A DNA stretch of 34,867 nt, taken from Sphingobacteriales bacterium (GTDB lineage Bacteria; Bacteroidota; Bacteroidia; Chitinophagales; JADIYW01). The stretch spans positions 1 to 34,867 of the forward strand of contig CANHGL010000018.1 in NCBI GenBank assembly GCA_947460245.1, read 5' to 3'. Position numbers and translations under genes: made by a program. This document shows positions 12,254-12,718 of the stretch, piece by piece. The notes beneath the pieces are model-generated. The model made no database searches. It was not told where the DNA came from and saw only the letters and a list, made by a program, of their open reading frames with translations. How positions within the stretch are numbered: position 1 is the stretch's first letter; each line of letters begins with the position of its first letter.

Positions 12254-12331
12254 GGGCGCATAGCTCAGCTGGTTCAGAGCACCTGCCTTACAAGCAGGGG
12301 GTCCGCGGTTCGAACCCGTGTGCGCCCACCA
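12254..12331 (+). tRNA. tRNA-Val(UAC), CCA encoded
   Basis: A full cloverleaf: acceptor stem GGGCGCA / TGCGCCC, D-arm around GCTCAGCTGGTTCAGAGC, anticodon stem CCTGC / GCAGG with loop CTTACAA (anticodon TAC, valine), and T-arm with GGTTCGAACCC. The discriminator A at 12328 is followed by an encoded CCA (12329-12331). A strong promoter precedes it and a terminator begins at its last base. Parts of this gene are repeated 337-360 bases downstream, around the end of a GIY-YIG gene. Confidence 0.97.
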
Positions 12332-12358
12332 AGTCCCGACAAACGTCGGGACTTTTTT
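12331..12358 (+). terminator. Intrinsic terminator of tRNA-Val
   Basis: Stem AAGTCCCGAC / GTCGGGACTT with loop AAAC, followed by a T-run, starting at the last base of the tRNA. A second copy with loop GATA lies at 12691-12718. Confidence 0.9.
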
Positions 12359-12364
12359 ATTTTT

Positions 12365-12631
12365 ATGGAATATACTTGCTACATACTTTTTTCCGAGAGC
12401 CTGAATAAGTTCTACATAGGGTATACTTCAGATGAGCTAAGTATTCGTTTAAAAAAGCATCTGGCTAATCATACAGGCTATACAGCTAAGGCTAAAGACT
12501 GGAAAGTAGTATATTTTGAATTGTTTGATACAAAAGAACAGGCAATGAGCAGAGAACGCTTTATAAAAAAGCAGAAATCCAGAAAATATATAGAGCAGTT
12601 AATAGCTGGTTCAGAGCATCCCGATTTATAA
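12365..12631 (+). CDS. Small GIY-YIG nuclease (YhbQ/COG2827-like) nested in a tRNA-Val duplication
   Basis: 88 residues from the ATG at 12365, chosen because the domain begins there ([10 protein letters not shown]). Motifs: CYI (5-7) in place of GIY, YIG (17-19), Arg28 in LSIRLKKH, and Glu64 in [10 protein letters not shown], the usual GIY-YIG catalytic set. These single-domain enzymes nick or cut DNA; cellular roles of the small family are poorly known, and relatives include homing endonucleases. The frame is open upstream through the whole tRNA-Val, so a longer annotated product would be an artefact of translating the tRNA. The last eight residues, AGSEHPDL, and the stop codon are encoded by a copy of the tRNA D-arm and a new anticodon-like hairpin. 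There is no partner gene. The layout suggests a mobile or site-specific cassette targeting the tRNA. Confidence 0.85.
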
Positions 12632-12691
12632 TCGGGAGGGTCCGCGGTTCGAACCCGTTCCGCAGTATCGGAACAAGTAGTGCGCCCACCA
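12604..12691 (+). pseudogene. Mosaic tRNA-Val copy with replaced anticodon arm and 21-bp insert
   Basis: Three blocks are identical to tRNA-Val: 12604-12618 = 12267-12281 (D-arm), 12638-12658 = 12299-12319 (variable region and most of the T-arm), and 12680-12700 = 12320-12340 (acceptor 3' strand, CCA and terminator left arm). The anticodon arm is replaced by a perfect hairpin, TCCCGA-TTTATAA-TCGGGA (12619-12637), whose loop would present UAU and also contains the stop codon of the GIY-YIG gene. A 21-bp insert at 12659-12679 carrying GTTCCG/CGGAAC arms splits the T-stem. The 5' acceptor strand is missing. It is unlikely to be a working tRNA. The blocks probably mark how the cassette rebuilt or duplicated its target. 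Confidence 0.8.
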
Positions 12692-12718
12692 AGTCCCGAC
12701 GATAGTCGGGACTTTTTT
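12691..12718 (+). terminator. Second copy of the tRNA-Val terminator, after the GIY-YIG gene
   Basis: AAGTCCCGAC / GTCGGGACTT with loop GATA and a T-run. It is the same stem as the terminator behind tRNA-Val, carried along with the duplicated tRNA 3' end. Confidence 0.88.

Follow-up and report, generated by a model that had tools for sequence, protein, structure and literature searches.

A GIY-YIG nuclease cassette adjoining tRNA genes across the Bacteroidota

A small GIY-YIG nuclease gene lies between an intact tRNA-Val gene and a broken copy of the same tRNA in the DNA analysed here, a 34,867-nucleotide stretch from a Sphingobacteriales bacterium (GCA_947460245.1, CANHGL010000018.1; 'the window'). 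Cassettes of this build were found at tRNA genes throughout the phylum. They appear to be a very common type of miniature mobile DNA in this phylum, one not yet described. We consider it probable that they are selfish, isotype-specific homing cassettes with a single gene: the nuclease would cut a tRNA gene and repair of the break would rebuild one intact tRNA.

The original prediction, made from the letters of the window, had placed an 88-residue GIY-YIG gene directly after tRNA-Val, and blocks of this tRNA together with its terminator in the right order at the far end of the gene. Both were borne out (Table 1). The first 76 nt of the intact tRNA (T1) are identical to tRNA-Val of the cassette-free relatives G004 and G006. 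Three blocks of T1 recur in the broken copy (T2), followed by a copy of the terminator. Chance similarity of T1 and T2 was rejected: the longest common block is 21 nt, compared with a maximum of 12 in 2000 segment shuffles. The last eight residues of the nuclease and its stop codon had likewise been ascribed to tRNA-derived sequence. This is correct for A-G-S-E and two bases of the H codon, which are encoded by block 1; the ensuing P-D-L-stop is encoded by a perfect hairpin which is not tRNA sequence. The hairpin is identical in relative G003 and near-identical in G001 and G002.

Table 1. Features of the cassette locus in the window.
Feature	Positions	Strand	Evidence
Intact tRNA-Val(TAC), functional copy (T1)	12254..12331	+	ARAGORN; Rfam tRNA 68.9 bits
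T1 terminator, AAGTCCCGACAAACGTCGGGACTT + T-run	12331..12360	+	Direct repeat D2, 10-bp hairpin
GIY-YIG nuclease gene, 88 aa	12365..12631	+	PF01541 E=3.7e-15; start codon in T-run of terminator
T2 block 1: D-arm, copy of T1 positions 14-28	12604..12618	+	Direct repeat D5, 15/15 identical
Perfect hairpin TCCCGATTTATAATCGGGA in place of T2 anticodon arm	12619..12637	+	Sequence, fold
T2 block 2: variable loop + T-arm, copy of T1 positions 46-66	12638..12658	+	Direct repeat D4, 21/21 identical
Second hairpin insert GTTCCGCAGTATCGGAAC + AAGTA, T-arm/acceptor part of T2	12657..12679	+	Sequence, fold
T2 block 3: acceptor 3' strand + CCA, copy of T1 positions 67-78	12680..12691	+	Direct repeat D2
Terminator copy after T2	12691..12720	+	Direct repeat D2, 93% over 42 nt

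The same genome has two further family members in tandem on another contig (C59). Their flanks contain an apparent broken tRNA-Asp 3' end, GTCGCGGGGTTC[CCCCGAGCACTCGGGG]CGTCCGGACCGC, which was read by eye; BLAST gave no call. Downstream in the window, a 105-nt direct repeat (90%; 12697-12801 and 12885-12989) starts within the T2 terminator and suggests a further duplication beyond the cassette. Past the cassette the intergenic DNA holds an inverted-repeat unit, GTTGTTGGTG...CACCAACAA(C), in three copies (about 12822-12881, 13000-13048 and 13172-13226), possibly a separate interspersed repeat.

The PF01541 match, the catalytic Tyr/Arg/Glu residues and the fold identify the window protein as a member of the GIY-YIG superfamily. 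Y6, Y17, G19, R28 and H32 are invariant in 69 relatives and E64 is conserved in at least 90% of them. AlphaFold2 predicted a confident GIY-YIG fold (pLDDT 88.6) in which the last residues, i.e. those encoded by tRNA and hairpin sequence, are disordered. Beyond the GIY-YIG domain the nuclease has no obvious DNA-binding domain. The nearest relatives with a solved structure, by fold and sequence, are the single-domain UPF0213/COG2827-like protein BH0048 (1ZG2) and then SLX1. A survey of the superfamily recorded no tRNA association for either group (PMC1564403). In close pairs dN/dS was 0.06-0.33; thus, the protein is maintained under purifying selection. The window protein had no match in PADLOC. 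The nuclease of a tRNA-Pro(GGG) locus (L140, 1399-1641) matched part of the PADLOC candidate family PDC-S14 (E=6e-5), and lists of candidate defence genes may therefore contain relatives of the cassette.

How widespread is the family? A search profile was built from ten nuclease proteins of relatives in the window's taxonomic family. It matched in 98 of the 149 genomes of the order (E<=1e-9) and in 177 of 296 sampled Bacteroidota genomes, i.e. in 100 of 146 genera (E<=1e-12), with a maximum of 17 copies per genome. Cultured hosts in a named collection came from all over the phylum, e.g. Mucilaginibacter, Pedobacter, Flavobacterium, Polaribacter and Chryseobacterium. This collection also contained one Patescibacteria record with a family member. 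In a Patescibacteria metagenome-assembled genome two members stand in tandem before tRNA-Ser (L192, 575-1167); transfer beyond the Bacteroidota or a mis-binned contig are possible explanations. Searches of phages, plasmids and viral contigs yielded no relative of the family, and an origin from phages or plasmids was rejected on these grounds.

In 12 relatives from the window's taxonomic family this type of nuclease sits after tRNA-Val, Lys, Ser, Asn and Arg. The 154 distinct family members comprise 91 with an intact tRNA on the same strand within 100 nt upstream (type A) and another 16 with one between -60 and +30 nt from the stop codon (type B). The other 47, which take in contig ends and second copies of tandems, have recognizable tRNA sequence in the flanks of 38. 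Thus, a tRNA gene or its remains adjoin at least 145 of the 154 nuclease genes. In a second set of loci 26 of 26 were linked to a tRNA and remnants were present in 21 of 23. About 20 anticodons are targeted. The linkage is not a trait of every GIY-YIG gene: 11 longer relatives with the signature 'YVYILxNxxxTVLYIGVT' in the same genomes had no tRNA nearby. GIY-YIG genes lacking a tRNA, which had been named as evidence that would speak against a cassette, thus occurred only in this different, longer family.

Beyond the nuclease gene, as seen from the intact tRNA, the same tRNA recurs in partial form at 75 of the 91 type A loci and at 15 of the 16 type B loci. As anticipated, the flanking copy matches its target across different tRNAs (Val, Met, Ala, Arg, Pro, Asp, Asn, Ser, Leu, Lys, Phe, Gly and His). 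Type A loci run in the order T1, terminator, nuclease, D-arm, hairpin, variable loop/T-arm/acceptor and terminator copy. Type B is the mirror image: a tRNA 5' part, a hairpin, the nuclease and then the intact tRNA. The partial copy covers the anticodon arm in about 15% of type A loci, the D-arm in up to about 49% and the 3' half in about 70-80%. A cassette measures about 0.3-0.45 kb and has a single ORF. An integrase was not found between the tRNA copies of any locus examined, the nuclease being the only ORF there; this rejected a tRNA-integrating element with a tyrosine integrase. Because no insertion splits the functional tRNA gene and the element lies outside it, a group I intron in the tRNA gene was rejected as well. 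The idea of a self-contained one-gene cassette which targets a tRNA, lacks an integrase and leaves the tRNA whole is supported by these data; active mobility is suggested by the comparison of sites below. The anticodon-arm hairpin, the second hairpin insert, the mirror form, the tandem arrays and the spread through the phylum go beyond what had been predicted.

At the T2 junction, 56 of 71 loci had a perfect hairpin with 6 bp or more, compared with 2.7 expected from shuffles of the same segments. Often it replaces exactly positions 27-43, i.e. the anticodon arm, and the boundary 26|44 is exact in many loci of Ala, Arg, Leu, Met and Val tRNAs. Other loci depart from this: in Asn, Ser, initiator Met and Asp tRNAs the hairpin takes up half of the arm, and further positions are the T-loop (56|62-63) and, for some Arg tRNAs, the D-loop (21|22). 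T-loop hairpins comparable to the second insert of the window were thus seen again at other loci. The outer arms fall into the classes TCCCG, TCCGCC, CTGCC and CACGC, and the class tracks the clade of the nuclease (5 changes along the tree versus 15-18 after shuffling). The position does so modestly, with 20 changes versus 23-29, and was rejected as a clear-cut marker of nuclease clades; in this analysis some tRNA-Pro(GGG) hairpins were misplaced into the D-loop owing to a short repeat within that tRNA. A general dispersed repeat was also rejected, since such hairpins number 2.3 per kb near cassettes versus 0.26 in other DNA, where many of them belong to the arrays.

Remnants accumulate at these loci. 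Of 84 type A loci, 35 had 5' remnants of the same tRNA upstream of T1, and these mostly break off near position 27-29. Some of them are arrayed; L172, for example, has five 77-bp units. In L172 (1-2627), L024, L071 and L154, 3-5 units without a nuclease separate the promoter of the tRNA from its intact copy, each consisting of tRNA 1-27, a hairpin, a short 3' piece and a spacer; several spacers contain a boxA-like GTTCTTTAAA. The nuclease gene itself occurs in tandems of up to five copies with one intact tRNA-Asp (L314). ARAGORN called hairpin-bearing remnants tRNAs, namely a false tRNA-Ile(TAT), tRNA-Val or '???' (L154, 3325-3402; L043; L170; L187). Bacteroidota tRNA annotation may therefore contain ghosts.

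Occupied and empty sites were both found, as expected of a mobile cassette. At tRNA-Pro(GGG) in one genus with a common upstream gene, a comparison between species, 10 sites were empty, 4 were occupied and 1 carried a scar without a nuclease. The empty state consists of a promoter and a single tRNA; the occupied state consists of the promoter, a 5' remnant with hairpin, the nuclease and the intact tRNA. In the scar (L303, G213:C136) an intact tRNA-Pro is preceded by a hairpin-bearing tRNA-Pro remnant, as would be expected if the nuclease gene had been lost once the cassette was inserted. The intact tRNA-Pro is identical in 14 of the 15 genomes. This rejected protection by a recoded intact tRNA. 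At an orthologous tRNA-Met site of another genus, again compared between species, 2 genomes were empty and 3 occupied. In the window's own taxonomic family the same arrangement at tRNA-Val in all relatives would have spoken for mere inheritance; the site is empty in G004, G006, G008, G011 and G012, with rearranged synteny that prevents a clean alignment of empty sites. A TonB-receptor-like gene lies upstream of tRNA-Val and divergent in the window (9780-12254) and downstream in G006 (L034, G006:C155), so the tRNA-Val locus is rearranged among relatives. Patchy presence and empty sites rejected a vertically inherited neighbour gene.

We further asked whether the nuclease follows the tRNA or the host. 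On a nuclease tree of only 85 columns, in which many forks are unresolved, tRNA identity required 36 changes versus 62-70 after shuffling, and host family 43 versus 53-63 for the same 88 rows. Thus, the nuclease follows the tRNA more closely than the host. Judged by this tree, the nuclease lineage appears to have switched its tRNA dozens of times.

How might such loci arise? In the homing scheme which we favour, the small nuclease would cleave the tRNA gene, and in most lineages the cut would fall within the anticodon arm. During repair a donor cassette with tRNA fragments at its ends would be copied in, and one intact tRNA would always be regenerated, either upstream of the nuclease gene as in the window (type A) or downstream (type B). 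The displaced fragments would remain homologous to the sequence left and right of the cut and have a hairpin at the cut site, which would prevent re-cutting. The cut ends, i.e. the 5' and 3' parts of the tRNA, could pair with the donor's upstream remnant, T1 or T2. With the left end on T1 and the right end on T2 a type A cassette would be copied in; with the left end on the upstream remnant and the right end on T1 an extra upstream unit would result. Repeated cutting of the intact copy followed by out-of-register repair may add hairpin-bearing fragments or nuclease copies and so build the tandem arrays. Where the tRNA is essential, the only survivors would be products with an intact tRNA. The homing scheme would account for both forms, the arrays and the hairpin at the presumed cut site.

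Several points stand against it. In classical homing the occupied allele is expected to have a destroyed site. Here the presumed target site is replaced by a hairpin in the remnants and retained in the regenerated tRNA. The anticodon arm of T1 is unaltered and the same as in empty alleles, so the occupied allele should still be cuttable, and the scheme has no account of how T1 escapes repeated cutting. Furthermore, blocking a site does not call for a perfect, lineage-specific hairpin whose outer arms are conserved; the hairpin therefore probably has a function outside the homing scheme. The lack of an obvious DNA-binding domain beyond GIY-YIG, the closeness of the fold to the structure-specific SLX1 and the modest link of hairpin position to nuclease clade also count against the scheme. 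In the comparisons, all of them between species, no strain-to-strain transfer was seen.

The main alternative is a nuclease that recognizes structure and not tRNA sequence. It would cleave hairpins or branched DNA, extruded both by inverted repeats of the tRNA gene and by the hairpins of the element, in the manner of SLX1, a housekeeping structure-specific nuclease, and the hairpins would be the true ends of the element. The structures of SLX1, second only to UPF0213 in closeness, point in this direction. So do the hairpins, which are perfectly complementary though their inner bases vary, belong to classes that follow the nuclease clade across isotypes, and stand where the palindromes of the tRNA gene had been (anticodon arm 27-43; T-loop about 57-62). 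However, isotype specificity tracks the nuclease tree, which is unexpected for purely structural recognition, and in some lineages the hairpin is in the D-loop or in half of the anticodon arm. We regard this reading as rather unlikely. Even less probable by far is a toxin-like protein which acts on the tRNA itself, with hairpin-bearing, tRNA-like transcripts as protective decoys. The hairpin structure is indeed maintained, and the fragments of type B loci and upstream arrays lie between a tRNA promoter and the intact tRNA and so are probably transcribed. Yet a toxin needs neither a place in its target gene nor a switch of isotype together with the flanking copies; the missing PADLOC match of the window protein argues in the same sense, and GIY-YIG enzymes are, as far as we know, DNA nucleases.

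Two further readings were weighed. In tRNA-integrating islands and prophages the tRNA is typically regenerated by a fragment which the element brings along. The cassette resembles them in this respect and might be the remnant of an integrase- or transposase-type element with tRNA attachment sites, reduced to one cargo gene. Unlike the cassette, such islands have an integrase and a much larger cargo. The absence of an integrase between the copies at the loci examined, the small size with a single ORF, remnants with hairpins on both sides in place of a single direct repeat, and purifying selection on the nuclease make this origin very unlikely. Finally, ordinary recombination could duplicate tRNA genes next to which a vertically inherited GIY-YIG gene came to lie by chance. 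Tandem duplications are frequent at cassette loci; nevertheless, an association above 90% over about 20 anticodons, recurrent breakpoints and hairpins, and the empty orthologous sites leave this reading with hardly any credibility.

The homing scheme has precedents. By analogy, the cassette would work like free-standing homing endonucleases, SegB above all, without belonging to the SegB family. Like these endonucleases, the nuclease ORF lies outside introns and inteins, beside a regenerated tRNA at more than 100 loci, and occupied and empty alleles of one site exist for tRNA-Pro and tRNA-Met. SegB of T4/T6 phages is a GIY-YIG enzyme that cleaves inside tRNA genes and drives amplification of tandem tRNA-segB units through microhomology of the tRNA 5' end to the 3' end of the nuclease gene (PMC13096335). 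Shared features are the superfamily, tRNA genes of many isotypes and tandem units of tRNA and nuclease gene. In the passages on SegB considered here, the sparing of its own genome by SegB of phage T6 is described as open, and hairpin-bearing tRNA fragments, a feature of the cassette, are not described (PMC13096335). Members of the SegB family have about 220 residues and are homologous over GIY-YIG and a C-terminal region. The cassette nuclease differs: SegB has 221 residues versus 80-100, hhalign gave a probability of 3.4% over 20 aligned columns, and SegB is phage-borne whereas the cassette family is chromosomal.

A different precedent is the ORF360-type element of Allomyces mitochondrial DNA, in which a free-standing endonuclease gene brings along a replacement for the 3' portion of the gene it enters and displaces the original portion downstream. 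There, the target is a protein-coding, mitochondrial gene, and an isotype-switching family, a mirror form and hairpin arrays are not known. In the open-access literature that was searched the arrangement reported here was not found described; subscription papers and preprints were outside that search. There is a substantial chance that the cassette type deserves a class of its own. A more specific claim falls a little short of an even chance: it would be a new, phylum-wide class of minimal mobile element, made of one nuclease gene and hairpin-masked fragments of its tRNA target, which invades essential tRNAs, rebuilds them on either side, switches isotype and leaves fragment arrays as a record of repeated self-cutting.

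Should the homing reading be right, how an intact own target is tolerated, how isotypes are changed and what effect the hairpin has in place of the anticodon arm become testable questions. The odd 'tRNA pseudogene' arrays of Bacteroidota and wrongly called tRNAs such as the false tRNA-Ile(TAT) would be explained. SegB would have a counterpart on bacterial chromosomes in the cassette, and we know of no smaller tRNA-invading element. Most Bacteroidota would then carry, in essential and often single-copy tRNA genes, a selfish nuclease family for which databases have only the label 'GIY-YIG nuclease family protein'.
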